Below are positions 10,334 through 35,910 of a DNA stretch of 64,000 nucleotides, in pieces. The position numbers were made by a program, and so were the translations under genes. A model generated the notes under the pieces. That model was not told where the DNA came from. It did not search any database and was given only the letters and a program-made list of their open reading frames with translations. Source of the DNA: Lysobacter arenosi (lineage in GTDB: Bacteria > Pseudomonadota > Gammaproteobacteria > Xanthomonadales > Xanthomonadaceae); contig NZ_CP071517.1 in NCBI RefSeq assembly GCF_016613475.2, forward strand, positions 930,001 to 994,000, given 5' to 3'. Each line of letters begins with the position of its first letter. Position 1 is the first letter of the stretch.

Positions 10334-10449
10334 GTTACGGCCTGGACTGTGCCGTTCATCGCTAACCCCGAAGCTGGCCGACCCCAAGCGTCCAGTGCGT
10401 GACAACAGTCAAGGACTTGCGTCGCGCACTGTCGTTTCATCGCGCGCAG

Positions 10450-11232
10450 TCAGGGGGACAACATGAAGACGCACAAGGGGACGGATCGCGTCGAACAGAC
10501 GCTGCGCTGGATGCTCGCGCTCGCGTTGATCGCGGCGGTGTGCTGGGCCTGGGGGCAGAGCGGCGGGGCGTTCCCGCCGTCGGCCTGACGCGCAGGCCAA
10601 GGAGGGGCATTGCTCAGCCCCAGGTGGTCCTTGACCGCCGCCAGCAACTCGCGCCTGCGCAACAGGAAGTCCCACAGACTGCCGCCGCACTGGCGCCAGA
10701 GCACTGCCGAGCGCACCGCGGCGAGCAGGATCGCGCGCACTTCGGCCACCACCGTGGCCTGGCCGAGGTAGTGCGGATTACCCTGCACCAGCACGCGCGG
10801 ACGCAGGTGGCTCAGGGTTTCCGCGTACAGGCTGCCGAGGGCGGTCATCACGTCCGGGTGAGTGCTGCCACTGCGCTCGGCGTTGCCCGCCTGCGCACGG
10901 ATACCGGCCTGCACGCGCTGGGCCATGTCATCGTCGCGGACAAAGCGACGCTCCAGCTGCAGTACCGCCAGCACCAGGCGCGGCAGCTGCTCGTCGCGCT
11001 GCTGGTTGCTGAAATAGTCGCGCAACAGCGTCAGGCCCGGGCGCACGGCCTCGATGCCTCCGTAGATGGCCGCGGGCGAGGGCGAATCGATCCGGAAGAC
11101 CGAATCCATCGCGGTGCCGAGGATGGCGGCGTTGGCCTGGCCGGTGTCGGCGACCCGCCGCACCTGCGCCAGCGCCTGCACCAGACCGGCCAGCGCCAGC
11201 ACGCGAGTGGACATGGAGTTGCTTTGATTCAT
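10450..11232 (-). CDS. hflD: HflD-family protein with C-terminal extension
   Basis: 260 residues. Residues 1-203 are a typical all-helical HflD, with landmarks [36 protein letters not shown] and [20 protein letters not shown]. HflD is a peripheral membrane protein linked in E. coli to lysogeny control through lambda CII and encoded next to mnmA. The start overlaps the mnmA stop as ATGA, so the two are cotranscribed. Family members usually end near residue 205-213; here the frame stays open for about 55 more residues of low-complexity sequence (10450-10622). That tail overlaps a small plus-strand reading frame and may not be conserved. Confidence 0.85.
10463..10588 (+). CDS. Putative 41-residue single-span membrane protein
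   Basis: A small reading frame starting ATG at 10463, five bases after AGGGGG, and ending TGA at 10586-10588. The product begins [16 protein letters not shown], has one hydrophobic segment ([15 protein letters not shown], about residues 17-31) and a short polar tail. Third codon positions are almost all G or C, as in real genes here. It lies 130 bases after the acnB terminator and is antisense to the unusual tail of hflD. No family is recognised. It could be a chance frame, but the ribosome-binding site and the membrane-span layout favour a gene. Confidence 0.4.
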
Positions 11233-28431: not shown

Positions 28432-28860
28432 GTGCGACCGACCCGTTTCATCGTTCTTGCAAGCATCACGGGCCTGATCGGCCTGTCGTCATTGGGCACG
28501 GTGGTTGCCCAGGACCTCACTACCAGTTACACCGGACCTGTCGATCCCCTGGCGTTCGCACCCGCGGCCGAACCTGTCGTCGAAGTGCCTGTCCAGGACA
28601 ACGCGATGGGTCAGTCGATCAATCTGGAAGCGCTGGCCGACATGCGCGGCGGCGCCGACATCGTTGAAAACGACATCCTTCTGGAAGGTCGCGTCGAGGA
28701 CAACACGGCCAATCGTGTCGTCACCGGCAACAATGCCCTGGGCGGCGGATCGTTCGTCAATTCCAACGGCATCAACACCGTCATCCAGAACACCGGCGCG
28801 AACGTGCTGATCCAGAACGGAATGATCGTGAACGTGCAGTTCGCGGACCCGACTCCATGA
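28432..28860 (+). CDS. Small exported protein with DMRGG double-glycine motif (minor subunit candidate)
   Basis: 142 residues from GTG at 28432. AAAGGAGA ends 7 bases upstream of this GTG but only 1 base before the ATG at 28426, so GTG is the better start. The signal peptide is about 1-26 (GTVVAQ). Residues 61-74 read QSINLEALADMRGG, with hydrophobic residues at -4 (Met), -7 (Leu) and -12 (Ile) counted from the second Gly, the pattern recognised by C39 peptidases. The C-terminal 25 residues (113-137) resemble the C-terminus of the glycine-rich protein. The stop overlaps the C39 peptidase start (ATGA). It is a probable peptidase substrate and minor fibre component, by inference. Confidence 0.75.
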   Translation: MRPTRFIVLASITGLIGLSSLGTVVAQDLTTSYTGPVDPLAFAPAAEPVVEVPVQDNAMGQSINLEALADMRGGADIVENDILLEGRVEDNTANRVVTGNNALGGGSFVNSNGINTVIQNTGANVLIQNGMIVNVQFADPTP

Positions 28861-29555
28861 GCGTCCGCACCATCCGGGGCCGTGCTTTGTTGGCGGCATC
28901 GGCCTGGATACTGTTGGCCGGCCTGGCCCAGGCCGGCAAGGTGGACGTGCGCGTCAATGGCGCGCCCTACCGCATGCAGGTGGTCAGCCTCAAGGAGGCC
29001 AGATTCCAGACCACCGTGCCGCAGCAATACGACTTCAGCTGCGGATCGGCCGCGACAGCGACGCTGCTCACGTACCAGTACGGCATCCCGGTCACCGAGG
29101 CCGAGGTGTTCATGCAGATGTACGAGCGCGGCGACCAGGCCAAGATCAAGCAGCGCGGTTTCTCGCTGCTGGACATGCGCCGCTACCTGCAGTCGCGCGG
29201 GTTCGAAGCCGATGGCTTCGAACAGCCGCTGGACAAGCTTTTCCAGGAAGGGTTGCCGGCGATCGTGCTGCTCAACGATCGTGGCTACAAGCATTTCGTC
29301 GTGATCAAGGGATTGCGCAACGGACGCATCCTGTTGGGCGATCCCGCCCGCGGCACGCGGGCGATGCCACGCTCGCGGTTCGAAGAGCTGTGGGACAACA
29401 AGATCCTGTTCGTGATCCACAACCGGCGCGAGATCGCCGGATTCAATCTCGCCCGCGACTGGCGCACGGCGCCACCGGCGCCACTGGATGCCGGCATCGC
29501 ACGCGACAGCCTTTACAACATCGTCACGCCGCGCAAGCGGCCGGGCGACATCTGA
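28857..29555 (+). CDS. Periplasmic C39-family cysteine peptidase, FapD-like
   Basis: 232 residues with a signal peptide (about 1-26, LLAGLAQA). The papain-like C39 domain has Gln56 and Cys62 in PQQYDFSCGSA, His146 in GYKHFVV and Asp162 in LLGDPARG, so the full catalytic set is present. C39 domains cut after double-glycine signals, usually as the N-terminal part of ABC exporters. Here the domain is free and exported, with no ABC transporter, as in FapD of the Fap amyloid locus. It overlaps the upstream gene by 4 bases and is followed after 11 bases by the second DMRGG protein. FapD-like identity is inferred from domain and gene order. Confidence 0.85.
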   Translation: MSVRTIRGRALLAASAWILLAGLAQAGKVDVRVNGAPYRMQVVSLKEARFQTTVPQQYDFSCGSAATATLLTYQYGIPVTEAEVFMQMYERGDQAKIKQRGFSLLDMRRYLQSRGFEADGFEQPLDKLFQEGLPAIVLLNDRGYKHFVVIKGLRNGRILLGDPARGTRAMPRSRFEELWDNKILFVIHNRREIAGFNLARDWRTAPPAPLDAGIARDSLYNIVTPRKRPGDI

Positions 29556-29566
29556 GGGGGTGGCAT

Positions 29567-30079
29567 ATGCGCTCGCCTTCATTGCGTCTGAGAGTTTCCC
29601 TGGCTGCCGCCGCCTTCGTCGCCGCTGCCGCGGCCACGCTGACGGCCGGCGCTGCCGAAGCCGACTCGCTGGGAGAGGAATGGGTCGCGATCGATCCCGC
29701 TCTGCTGGAGGACATGCGCGGCGGTTTCCAGACCGCCAACGGCATGTCGTTGTCGTTCGGCATTGAACGCGTGGTGTACGTCAATGGCGAACTGTTGGCC
29801 TCCACGCGGGTGAACATTCCCGACATCGGCCGGATGACGCAGGCCCAGGCCCAGGAACTGGCGGACTTCAACCAGGGCCAGGTGATCCAGGTCGGCGAAG
29901 GCAACACTTTCGAGCCGTCAGCCAACTTCAACGGCCTGCTGGTCCAGAACACCCGCAACGATCAGGACATCCGCGCCCTGACCACGGTCAATGTCGGCGT
30001 CGACACCCTCAGCGCGTTCCAGGATCTCAATACACAGCAGGCCCTGCAGAACGCCATGGTCGCGGCGACATCGCCATGA
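29567..30079 (+). CDS. Second small exported protein with DMRGG motif (FapE-position)
   Basis: 170 residues. The signal peptide is about 1-30, with a long Ala-rich hydrophobic core. Residues 42-53 read IDPALLEDMRGG, with Met at -4, Leu at -7 and Ile at -12 relative to the second Gly, the same spacing as in the first small protein. The rest is Gln/Asn-rich with strand-like segments (GLLVQNTRNDQDIRALTTVNVG). ATG at 29567 follows GAGGGGG, and the gene starts 11 bases after the peptidase stop. It sits between the peptidase and the barrel gene, where Fap loci carry fapE. Homology to FapE is not established. Confidence 0.75.
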   Translation: MRSPSLRLRVSLAAAAFVAAAAATLTAGAAEADSLGEEWVAIDPALLEDMRGGFQTANGMSLSFGIERVVYVNGELLASTRVNIPDIGRMTQAQAQELADFNQGQVIQVGEGNTFEPSANFNGLLVQNTRNDQDIRALTTVNVGVDTLSAFQDLNTQQALQNAMVAATSP

Positions 30080-30169: not shown

Positions 30170-31981
30170 ATGAAAAGGACGCCACCAACGCGCAAGCGCC
30201 TGATGCTTGCTCCCTGCCTGCTGTTGAGCATGGCCGGCATCGCCAATGCCCAGGACCCGTCGCAGCCCGTGGCCCGGACCGACGCCGGGACGCCGGCCAA
30301 TGCCGCGCCCGCTCCCGTCGTGCCGCCTGCGCGCAGCGCCAGGACCGTGGTTGCGGACCGCTCCGCCACCGCGGCCTTGGCGGCCGCTGCCGCAGCTGCG
30401 GCTTCGACCGCCAGCCCCCCGGCCACCACGGCACCGAAGTCGGCGACCCCGGCAGCGGTGGTCGCTGCGCCGAAGGCAGTGCCTGTAGTTGTTGCCGCAG
30501 CAAAGCCGCTGCCGCAAGCGGCTTCTGTGCCAGTGGCGGTTTCGCAGCCGGCACCGGTGCAGCCGACGCCTTCGCAGGCAGCGCCTGTGCAAGCGGCACC
30601 GGTGCAGGCAACACCGCCGAAGCAGGCACTGGTTCCGGCAACGCCGGAGGAAGTGGCCGCCGCCGAGGCACGCCTGGACGCGCTGCAGCGCGAGATCAAC
30701 CAGCAGACCCAGCGCCTGGGCGAGTTGCGCCAGACCTTGGCCCAGCAGGAACAGAGCGTTGCCAACCTGCAGCGGGCCCTGGATGAGGAACGCCTGGAGG
30801 GTGAGCGTGGTGCAGGTGCGACGCCGAGCCGCATGGTGCCCTCGCTGGCGCAACAGACGTTCGTCCCGGTGCCTGGACAATCGCAGCCAGCGCAGGTGGC
30901 ACAGGCGCAACAACCGCAACAGCAGCAGCAAGCGCAACAGCCGGTCGCGCAGCAGCAGCAACAGCAGCCAGCGCAGCAACAGCGCCAGCAGCCTGTCGGC
31001 GAAGCACCGGAGACTTCGACACGTCCGCCCGAAGTGGCGCAGATCTTCGACCAGCCCGGCGTGCTGACGCCGGCGGGCAAGTTCATCCTCGAGCCGTCAC
31101 TGCAGCATGGCTACTCGGCCAACGATCGCGTGGCATTGGTCGGTTTCACCGTCATCCCGGCGATCCTGATCGGCCTGATCGACGTCCGCCAGGTCAAGAC
31201 CACCTCCGGCGTGGCGACCGTCACCGGCCGTTACGGCTTCGGTGGGGGACGCTTCGAGCTCGAAGCGAAGGTCCCGTACGTCTACCTCAATGCCGACACG
31301 GTCAGCCGCGAGATATTCACCGGCACGGCCGTCGACAACGTCTTCAATGCCAGCGGCCGCGGCATGGGCGATATCGAGGCGACGGCACGCTACCAGCTCA
31401 ACAAGGGCGGCCCCGACAAGGCGTTCTACATTGGTTGGCTGCGTTACAAGAGCCGCACCGGCAAGGACATCTTCGAGGTCGTCACCGACTGCGTGACGCG
31501 CTGCGTGTCCAACGCTACCGGCACCGGTCTTCCGCTTGAACTGCCTACCGGCACAGGCTTCCAGGCCGTGCAGCCGGGCGTGACCTGGCTGTACCCGTCC
31601 GATCCGGTGGTGTTCTTCGGCAGCATCAGCTACCTGTACAACTTCGAGCGCCACAACGTCTCGCGCACGGTCCTGCTCAGTGGCAAGGAACTGCTGGGTG
31701 ACGTCAAGGCGGGCGACATCTGGGGTTTCAACCTCGGCATGGGCCTGGCGTTGAACGAGAAGGCATCGATCAGCCTCGGCTACGACACCAGCCTGGTCGG
31801 CAAGACCGAACAGAACGGCAGGGAAGCGCCGGGTTCGGTGCGGGTGACGCTGGGAACGATGCTGCTGGGCGGCACCTATCGCTTCAGCGACAAGGTTTCG
31901 CTCAACGTCGCACTCGGTGTCGGCGTGACACGCGATACGCCTGACGTGACGTTTACCGCTCGCGTTCCGATCTCCTTCTGA
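30170..31981 (+). CDS. Outer-membrane beta-barrel with N-terminal coiled coil, FapF-like secretion pore
   Basis: 603 residues. Signal peptide 1-27 (MAGIANA). Residues about 28-155 are Ala/Pro/Val-rich. A heptad coiled coil covers about 160-205 (ARLDALQREINQQTQRLGEL). A Gln-rich linker runs over about 235-285. Residues 300-603 are beta-barrel-like with alternating strands and end on Phe, typical of outer-membrane proteins. FapF, the amyloid export pore, is a barrel with an N-terminal coiled coil. GGAGG precedes ATG at 30170. It is the last gene of the putative locus, as fapF is. A different solute transporter of the same barrel superfamily is the main alternative. Confidence 0.82.
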   Translation: MKRTPPTRKRLMLAPCLLLSMAGIANAQDPSQPVARTDAGTPANAAPAPVVPPARSARTVVADRSATAALAAAAAAAASTASPPATTAPKSATPAAVVAAPKAVPVVVAAAKPLPQAASVPVAVSQPAPVQPTPSQAAPVQAAPVQATPPKQALVPATPEEVAAAEARLDALQREINQQTQRLGELRQTLAQQEQSVANLQRALDEERLEGERGAGATPSRMVPSLAQQTFVPVPGQSQPAQVAQAQQPQQQQQAQQPVAQQQQQQPAQQQRQQPVGEAPETSTRPPEVAQIFDQPGVLTPAGKFILEPSLQHGYSANDRVALVGFTVIPAILIGLIDVRQVKTTSGVATVTGRYGFGGGRFELEAKVPYVYLNADTVSREIFTGTAVDNVFNASGRGMGDIEATARYQLNKGGPDKAFYIGWLRYKSRTGKDIFEVVTDCVTRCVSNATGTGLPLELPTGTGFQAVQPGVTWLYPSDPVVFFGSISYLYNFERHNVSRTVLLSGKELLGDVKAGDIWGFNLGMGLALNEKASISLGYDTSLVGKTEQNGREAPGSVRVTLGTMLLGGTYRFSDKVSLNVALGVGVTRDTPDVTFTARVPISF

Positions 31982-34604: not shown

Positions 34605-35711
34605 TCAGTTGCCGATATCGTTTCCGGCCGCGGCGGCGTTGGCGATGATGCCCGACAGCGGCAGCAGCTGCGACAGGAAGCGGTTCCAGCGCGTCACACC
34701 GGCCGGGCCGACCCAGACCACGTCGCCGGGGCGCAGCGAGAAGCTGTTGCCCAAGGCGAACGCAGCCGGCGACTTGGCGTCGAGGTGGTAGACGGTGGCC
34801 GGCGTCTGCGTCATCTGTTCGATGCCGCGGATCACATAGACCGCTTCGCCTTTCGACGTGACCGGGTTGAGGCCACCGGTGCGACCCAGCGCCTGGGTCA
34901 GGGACATGTCGGTGGTCTTGAAGGTCAGCGCCTGGGGACGCAGCACTTCGCCGACGACGTAGACTTCCTTGCGATCGTTGAACGGCAGGAACAGGCGATC
35001 GCCGGGCTTGAGGAAGATATCGGGAGCGACCTTGCCGTCGCGATTGAGCGCGTCGAGGTCGAGCGGGTAATCGCGACCGTCGCGCGTCAGCACGAATCCG
35101 GCCAGGTCAGCCTGCTCGACATTGATGCGGGCGCGACCGACCGCCTGCGACAGCGTCAGCGGAACGGTGGTGAATTCCTGCGGCGCGGTGTCCTCGAACG
35201 CGCCCTGTACTGCGACGCGACTGCCATAGCCGACCACGTTGATGTCGAGCTGGGGATTGCGAAGGTACTGCGCGAGTCGACTGCTCAGCGTGCTGCGCAG
35301 GTCCTCGATGGTCATGCCGGTGACGTTGATCTTGCCCGCGTAGGGATAGAAGAACGTTCCGTCCGGTTGCACCAGGCGGCCGTTGGTGACGGCCTGCTGC
35401 TGGTTACCGGCGGGGCTGGTCAGCTCGGGGTGGTCCCAGACCGTGACCAGAATGGTGTCGCCGGGGTGGATCTTGTAGGACTCGGTACGGTAGTTCAGCA
35501 ACTCCTGCGGAACCTGGACCGCTGCCCGCTGTGGCGCCACGGTTTCGGCGGTGATCGGCACCATGCGTACGTCGCTGCCTCCCGCAACCTGCATATCGCC
35601 CGACGACTGCCGGCTCATCTGCTGGCCAGGCACACAACCGGCAGAAACAATCACGGCCGAAGCGATGGAGCTGGCTAACGCGACTCTCTTGATCGTGCTT
35701 CTTACAATCAT
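34605..35711 (-). CDS. Polysaccharide export outer-membrane lipoprotein (GumB/Wza family)
   Basis: 368 residues. Lipobox VSAGC near residue 21 follows a hydrophobic signal. The poly-export domain (YKIHPGDTILVTVWDHPEL near 80) is followed by two SLBB-type domains (VAVQGAFEDTAP; VYVVGEVLRPQALTF). A C-terminal helix region (NRFLSQLLPLSG) would insert in the outer membrane. It forms the export channel for exopolysaccharide with the GumC/Wzc inner-membrane partner. ATG at 35711 gives the signal directly. It is last in the minus-strand polysaccharide cluster, far from its usual partner gene at 46.6-48.8 kb. Confidence 0.92.
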   Translation of the reverse strand: MIVRSTIKRVALASSIASAVIVSAGCVPGQQMSRQSSGDMQVAGGSDVRMVPITAETVAPQRAAVQVPQELLNYRTESYKIHPGDTILVTVWDHPELTSPAGNQQQAVTNGRLVQPDGTFFYPYAGKINVTGMTIEDLRSTLSSRLAQYLRNPQLDINVVGYGSRVAVQGAFEDTAPQEFTTVPLTLSQAVGRARINVEQADLAGFVLTRDGRDYPLDLDALNRDGKVAPDIFLKPGDRLFLPFNDRKEVYVVGEVLRPQALTFKTTDMSLTQALGRTGGLNPVTSKGEAVYVIRGIEQMTQTPATVYHLDAKSPAAFALGNSFSLRPGDVVWVGPAGVTRWNRFLSQLLPLSGIIANAAAAGNDIGN

Positions 35712-35910
35712 GCTGTTCAAGGACTGGCCCTCATGTCGTTGGCAAGCGCATGGAGAACAAAGCACGCAACGCGCATACATTGCGAACCACACATGGGATC
35801 CTAATGGCGGCATCGACGATGAAGCGTGATTATGCGAATGCCTGGTGCAACGGCGTTCAGTGTGTTCAACCGCACCGAAACAAATCAGTGAAACGTGACG
35901 TGCTGCCAGT

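Follow-up and report, generated by a model that had tools for sequence, protein, structure and literature searches.

Bacteriocin-type leader motifs on two Sec-type proteins flanking a free C39 peptidase in a predicted Fap-type operon of Lysobacter arenosi

Five same-strand genes form one unit in the window, as we call the analysed stretch of 64,000 nucleotides from Lysobacter arenosi, and their products are named P0, P1, D, P2 and F here. Behind a Sec-type signal, P1 and P2 carry a double-glycine leader of the kind known from peptidase-containing ABC exporters, and between their genes lies that of D, a free C39 peptidase. We consider it probable, based on sequence comparison and predicted structures, that the unit is a divergent Fap-type system in which P1 and P2 lose their leaders to D once they are in the periplasm. 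This reading builds on the gene anatomy, the conservation of the motif, the homology to Fap parts and a match between peptidase clade and leader type, all of which were established directly.

A periplasmic C39 peptidase together with a FapF-type pore is already known (PMC5557850), and the accessible text on the nap island of Neisseria (NapA-C, NapP and NapF) describes GG peptides, a C39 peptidase and a FapF-like pore, with cleavage proposed to occur in the periplasm (PMC11798529). Compared by this description, which mentions no Sec signal, the nap system differs in its small cationic peptides and in the holin-like protein suggested for their passage through the inner membrane. In the literature covered, mostly main texts that are free of subscription, no bacteriocin-type leader is described in FapE or FilA, nor are Sec-exported Fap-like subunits with RGG leaders. 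The textbook C39 site in the FapE-like protein of Lysobacter points to an equivalent, slightly changed site in FapE. It offers a candidate target for the question of the FapD substrate, reduces a question of biofilm amyloid secretion to one N-terminus and suggests roles for other free C39 peptidases.

Organization of the operon

The genes of P1 and D overlap in the sequence ATGA and 11 bases separate D from P2, whose ORF was taken from inside a longer listed frame (Table 1). All five products have a signal-like N-terminal stretch, as judged by eye and with a home-made score. An earlier note on this DNA had placed the peptidase gene between those of two small proteins, which is indeed the order of these ORFs, but the bounds it gave the unit (28432..30079) proved too short, as a glycine-rich protein is encoded ahead of them and a FapF-type gene continues the unit.

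Table 1. Genes of the operon and leader cores of P1 and P2, with positions in the window
Feature	Position	Strand	Description
P0	26967..28277	+	436 aa, Gly/Ala/Asp-rich, exported-looking; candidate main subunit
P1	28426..28860	+	144 aa, Sec-type, leader ends DMRGG, C-terminal Q/N unit, FapB-like position
P1 leader core	28618..28653	+	residues 65-76: I-12, L-7, M-4, R-3, G-2, G-1
D	28857..29555	+	232 aa, free C39 peptidase, FapD-like, signal-like N-terminus
P2	29567..30079	+	170 aa, FapE-like, Sec-type, leader ends DMRGG^F
P2 leader core	29690..29725	+	residues 42-53: I-12, L-7, M-4, R-3, G-2, G-1; W39 = -15
F	30170..31981	+	603 aa, FapF-type: N-terminal linker part and outer-membrane barrel C-part

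Pfam and NCBIfam gave no family for P0, P1 or P2 at E 0.1. The C-terminal unit of P0 resembles P1 and is matched by the P1-family HMM (E 9.2e-6). P0 is a candidate fibre subunit without a known family; the leader motif was not found in P0 in a loose-pattern scan of the called genes of the window. A Wza-like polysaccharide export protein is encoded near the operon (34605-35813, minus strand).

The sole Pfam match of D is the C39 family (E 5.1e-22), and no ABC membrane or ATPase domain is fused to it according to Pfam, so D falls outside the peptidase-containing ABC transporters. When its structural model (mean pLDDT 80.6) was compared by Foldseek, PCAT1, ComA and LahT were matched in their peptidase domains (E ~2e-6 to 1e-5). 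The putative catalytic residues Gln56, Cys62, His146 and Asp162, which the earlier note had read correctly, are invariant in 28 aligned sequences including that of the window and in 160 tabulated peptidases, a set whose entry required the Cys motif. D, which is 98% identical to a peptidase of L. prati, thus combines the family match, the fold and the Gln/Cys/His/Asp set of a C39 peptidase.

Against the NCBIfam model of FapD, D scores 133.7 bits, below the equivalog cut-off of 330 (a FapD control from Pseudomonadaceae reaches 440.9 bits), and F scores 143.7 bits against FapF, below the cut-off of 700. F also matches the PDB structures of FapF (5o67, 5o65 and 5o68; best E 4.5e-26 over residues 287-602). 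Because both proteins score below these cut-offs while F matches the FapF structures, the locus, as judged from its sequence, is a divergent Fap-type one outside the curated NCBI families. By its gene order the locus is Fap-like in the wide sense: a FapD-like C39 peptidase is followed by a FapE-like protein and then by a FapF-type pore. With fapABCDEF of Pseudomonas it shares this order, an exported-looking FapD-like peptidase, the homology of its pore to the solved FapF structures and a homologous leader in FapE. It differs in the low scores of its peptidase and pore, in a leader that ends in RGG instead of RG[RK], in a second leader-bearing protein (P1) and in the lack of a family match for P0. 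A bacteriocin reading of the unit was rejected, since the genes beside D include no ABC exporter and P1 and P2 are FapB- and FapE-like.

The genome (G000) holds one other C39 match (G000:C1:1040250-1040621), in a 737-residue open frame ~81 kb away that is probably a peptidase-containing ABC exporter. That the GG leaders serve this frame and not D is highly improbable: the leaders of P1 and P2 are preceded by Sec-type signals, the two genes flank D, and D is the only free C39 peptidase found in its genome.

Leader motif of P1 and P2

The motif DMRGG occupies residues 72-76 of P1 and 49-53 of P2. Counted from the second glycine as -1, positions -12, -7 and -4 are taken by I65, L70 and M73 in P1 and by I42, L47 and M50 in P2, in agreement with the spacing given in the earlier note. 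Both proteins therefore show the hydrophobic residues at -12, -7 and -4 and the G-2 G-1 pair of double-glycine leaders. For peptidase-containing ABC exporters, the accessible text of PMC6959990 gives the consensus L(-12)xxxE(-8)L(-7)xxxxG(-2)G(-1), helical from -10 to -4, and that of PMC6363468 a similar one. The leaders of P1 and P2 follow this consensus except for Ile in place of Leu at -12 and for the Glu at -8, which is absent from both proteins (Ala69 in P1, Leu46 in P2). The likeness to ComA, PCAT1 and LahT extends over the C39 fold, the catalytic residues, the hydrophobic positions -12, -7 and -4 and the glycine pair; the differences are that D has no ABC domains, that the Lysobacter leader stands behind a Sec-type signal and that -8 is not Glu.

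A single scan yielded 73 relatives of D from named genomes, among them Lysobacter, Pseudoxanthomonas, Luteimonas, Ralstonia, Variovorax, Polaromonas, Rhodoferax, Halomonas, Thioalkalivibrio, Ectothiorhodospira, Marinobacter and Iodidimonas. P2 was aligned from 66 of these 73 loci and the window. In all 67 sequences L-7, R-3, G-2 and G-1 are kept and -12 is V, I, A, L or M, and W stands at -15 in 62. Seven loci with cut, fused or over-long frames were left out of this alignment (L100, L110, L118, L123, L129, L133 and L135); the match in L118 was P1, with no P2 seen there, and RGG is present at this position in each of the remaining six. When 29 diverse P2 sequences were compared (mean column identity 32%), the only invariant columns were M1, L47, R51, G52, G53 and G65.

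P1 (67 of the 73 loci and the window) is more variable: L-7 is found in 68/68, R-3 in 67/68, G-2 in 63/68 and G-1 in 62/68, with Y or Q at -4 in 35/68 and Ala at -2 in 5/68. The six exceptions to G-1 come from Ectothiorhodospira, Thioalkalivibrio and Marinobacter. No match to P1 was obtained in L111, L131 and L133, and L124 and L125 (wrong frames) and L127 (LAGLEGG) were omitted. L124 and L125 are near-alike loci, one assigned to an alphaproteobacterium and the other to an Anaerolineae MAG, which probably reflects a binning error. An apparent loss of GG in P1 of Burkholderiales was rejected, as YRGG and QRGG are present and were missed when M, L, I, V or F was demanded at -4; a loss of the whole leader in relatives without GG was dropped because the same over-strict pattern lay behind it. 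The five letters of DMRGG, whose conservation in orthologues the earlier note had made decisive, are thus kept in their RGG part, whereas -5 and -4 vary. Its broader idea, in which Sec-type proteins with GG-type leaders are encoded next to a free C39 peptidase that itself looks exported, is supported, and these leaders are conserved in the relatives.

The motif stands out from the variable stretch that separates it from the signal, with a mean pairwise identity of 0.61-0.72 from -7 to -1 versus 0.18-0.20 in that stretch. LxxxRGG within residues 26-140 occurs in none of the 352 other signal-bearing called genes of the examined loci and in 4 of their 1524 other called genes, so its presence in both P1 and P2 is well above chance. 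A looser pattern, ending in G[GAS], picks out 5 of the 55 called genes of the window, namely P1 and P2, which are the only ones with RGG, and three others, one of which has a signal-like start. In a profile comparison P1 and P2 align to each other (Prob 96.8).

In the model of P2 (mean pLDDT 75.5, pTM 0.52), residues 44-51, i.e. -10 to -3, form a helix of moderate confidence (block mean 69), pLDDT drops below 50 at residues 53-55, and a beta core starts at residue 62, where the block means stay at 80-95 as far as residue 150. P2 would thus consist of a separable leader ahead of a folded domain. The motif could instead be a structural element of the mature FapE- and FapB-like proteins, with D acting elsewhere, e.g. 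on the linker that F has in the periplasm. That FapD cuts FapF in its linker has been suggested (PMC5557850 and PMC12822426, in the text accessible to us), and the first 20 residues after the motif of P2 are conserved as well (mean pairwise identity 0.52). The spacing of a C39 leader, the position of the motif outside the predicted core of P2 and its presence in both P1 and P2 while it is rare elsewhere make this structural role improbable.

Some loci with a single peptidase have RGG in P2 and RGR, AGR, AGK, SGR, RAR or RAM in P1; in L161, L220, L251 and L137, RGG in P2 faces RGR, AGR, AGK or SGR in P1 of the same locus. Judged from these sequences, either one enzyme can accept substrates with different residues at -1 or P1 is left uncut at this position.

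Equivalent leader in FapE

The alignment with the Lysobacter branch exposed the equivalent site in FapE. The P2 profile matches that of FapE from other fap loci along 35 columns with the motif at their centre (Prob 95.0, E 3.6e-8), setting VAIDPALLEDMRGGF against ELTDGELSGMRGRF. All 16 FapE sequences of other fap loci, which were chosen by position from gene calls, have L or M at -7, M, L, I or Q at -4, G at -2, R or K at -1 and Y or F at +1, and -3 is R in 13, Q in 2 and S in 1. Among 59 genomes of Pseudomonadaceae, 12 encode a FapD above the NCBI cut-off, and in all 12 the FapE leader lies shortly past the signal, e.g. ELKDQELATLRGRY. A second glycine-rich spot, ~25 residues beyond the FapE leader, reads GG or GA in 5/16, versus 16/16 for the leader itself. 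In L190, the protein in the FapA position (10425-10907, minus strand) carries MTDADFAAMVGG, a possible leader in another Fap component.

According to the accessible text of the 2017 study (PMC5557850), FapD of Pseudomonas is periplasmic and its catalytic Cys is essential, as mutant C38A abolishes FapC secretion. The same text describes canonical C39 sequences as absent from the Fap proteins, points to GG and GA in FapE and reports FapE as the only Fap protein without peptides in its first ~70 residues. Of two later papers, again as far as their text is accessible, that of 2018 (PMC6173800) calls the substrate of FapD 'yet to be determined', and that of 2025 (PMC12822426) has FapD as 'thought to process' FapE and FapF. 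No further FapD substrate is named in the accessible parts of PMC3684753, PMC11787515 and PMC12392863.

Proposed processing and cleavage site

In the proposed sequence of events, P0, P1 and P2 would cross the inner membrane by Sec. D would then dock the amphipathic leader that P1 and P2 still carry N-terminally, with the hydrophobic residues at -12, -7 and -4 in a groove and the glycine pair in its narrow active site, and would remove the leader at or next to this pair, either before the proteins enter F or while they pass it. This would yield mature minor subunits, FapB-like P1 and FapE-like P2, which may then pass or gate the FapF-type pore F. From the conserved leaders and the peptidase beside them we infer the cutting of P1 and P2, the bond that is cut and the order of cutting and secretion. 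Extended to relatives, FapD-like peptidases would act in the periplasm by recognizing bacteriocin-type leaders of subunits that Sec has exported. The earlier suggestion of periplasmic maturation by the C39 peptidase thus finds backing in the conserved leaders, and had missed the Fap-type nature of the operon.

The R or K at -1 of FapE counts against cutting, since the narrow C39 cleft is expected to refuse a bulky residue. For FapE and for the P1 proteins with such a residue, either this branch accepts a bulky residue, or the cut falls after G-2, or the leader only serves for docking. A cut after GG should not be taken for granted, as G-2 is steadier than -1 across leader types.

A version of the processing model in which D cuts after G-2 is possible, though we rate it well below an even chance. 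The recognized core would then be x-G followed by a lineage-specific residue (G, R/K, Q and at times A or T). It would spare the C39 peptidase a bulky residue at the P1 site and accommodate that G-2 is constant and -1 depends on lineage across the RGG, [RQS]G[RK] and GQ types. It would also displace L-7, -4 and -12 by one position relative to LahT and PCAT1; moreover, protein P1 has Ala at -2 in the five sequences mentioned above, and G-2 was part of the filter behind the leader counts given below.

Alternatively, the leader may serve for docking or gating and be bound by D or F but left uncut, as by the catalytically dead C39-like domains of some type I exporters; the accessible texts of PMC5557850 and PMC6173800 confirm that C39-like domains without cutting exist. 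A strict protease would not allow R or K at -1 in FapE nor a -1 residue that differs between P1 and P2 of one locus. The invariance of the catalytic residues and the loss of FapC secretion in the active-site Cys mutant of FapD speak for an active enzyme, and we consider docking without cutting unlikely.

Leader types across free C39 peptidases

Of 183 distinct free peptidases in the loci examined, 160 have a downstream protein that fits L or M at -7, G at -2 and G, R or K at -1; as these three positions were the filter conditions, the constancy of G-2 in this count holds by construction. The residue at -1 is G in 107 and R or K in 53, and 148 of the 160 have M, L or I at -4. Among the 23 peptidases that failed the filter, L118 had no downstream frame and the rest no fitting downstream protein. 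The form RG[RK][YF] is not general, as only 28 of the 53 proteins of the R/K class have R at -3 and 38 have Y or F at +1.

A set of 193 peptidases was thinned to 133 for a quick maximum-likelihood tree. The 65 peptidases of the G type and the 42 of the R/K type form one clade each in it (SH-aLRT 98), with 26 others apart from both and the FapD of Pseudomonadaceae inside the R/K clade. The match of peptidase clade and leader type fits joint evolution, as far as a comparison of sequences can tell; it is no proof of contact, since leader type and peptidase travel together by operon descent, and the columns of D that separate the G from the R/K type follow the clade. One genome (G021) carries R/K-type and G-type Fap loci (L139/L015 and L013) on one contig, ~90 kb apart.

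A loose leader pattern was found in 121 of 334 signal-bearing genes near the peptidase (≤ 1.5 kb, same strand) versus 14 of 190 far ones. The far set comprises genes at a distance of more than 4.5 kb, genes on the opposite strand and genes elsewhere in the window, with those in between left uncounted. The p-value of ~2e-14 (Fisher) is inflated by the abundance of homologues in the near set, and the per-gene counts are lower bounds, as the gene caller missed genes in several loci. Some of the 14 far matches look like true members, namely three in L169 and perhaps two in L124/L125. The three in L169 (1182-4821, minus strand, G246) are related Sec-type proteins with the leaders AEMDSVQGK, AEIESVQGK and AEMDAVQGK, and the FapD-like peptidase near them has a split frame.

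FilB-like peptidases and GQ leaders

D scores almost as high against FilB as against FapD (129.9 bits), below the FilB cut-off of 475, and a leader comparable to that of Lysobacter is found in FilA of an Acinetobacter record, where it ends in TGQ. FilA of this record corresponds to DUF6160 and carries MDDAALSAATGQ. On FilA and FilB nothing on point was found in the literature, and the FilB of PMC11784438 is, in its accessible text, another protein.

A second class of free C39 peptidase was found in Pseudomonadaceae (L267-L275 and L279-L283), with 115-122 bits to FapD; two tested members score ~250 bits to FilB. L170, L172, L267 and L279, a FilB-like group among the 26 peptidases outside both clades of the tree, reach 237-311 bits against FilB versus 110-122 against FapD. 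All 14 loci of the second class encode a Sec-type protein with [ML]DD..L...GQ (13 TGQ, 1 SGQ), of 140-155 aa and with the extended form [ML]DD..L...GQ[DA]GIS, like FilA/DUF6160. The loose leader pattern was unmatched at L277, a weak free frame of 29.4 bits, and at the long-frame loci L276, L278 and L284. The double glycine that the earlier note took as the signal is the local form in the window; in the wider leader, -1 is R or K in FapE of other fap loci, and next to FilB-like peptidases it is often Q.

Tentatively, and with confidence slightly short of even, FapD, FilB and the window clade, all in Pseudomonadota, may be one kind of periplasmic leader peptidase that acts on the bacteriocin-type leaders of Sec-exported fibre subunits. 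G-2 would be kept, and -1 (G, R/K, Q, sometimes A or T) would serve as a lineage letter that keeps co-resident systems apart. If so, FapD would gain FapE as a substrate and FilB the FilA/DUF6160 proteins. The matches at other loci, which are absent or chance-like in part, lower the odds of this wider proposal: the loose leader scan matched 16 of 30 such loci and gave none in 14, and several of the 16 matches fall inside the peptidase or resemble chance matches (L175, L202, L207 and L212). The more convincing endings at these 30 loci are EGA, EGK, QGR, QGA, KGG, KGT and QGK.

One genome (G083) encodes seven free C39 peptidases of one clade (L196 and L207-L212), several of which adjoin weak FapF-like genes, while two adjoin Sec-type proteins with leaders ending in QGR or EGK.
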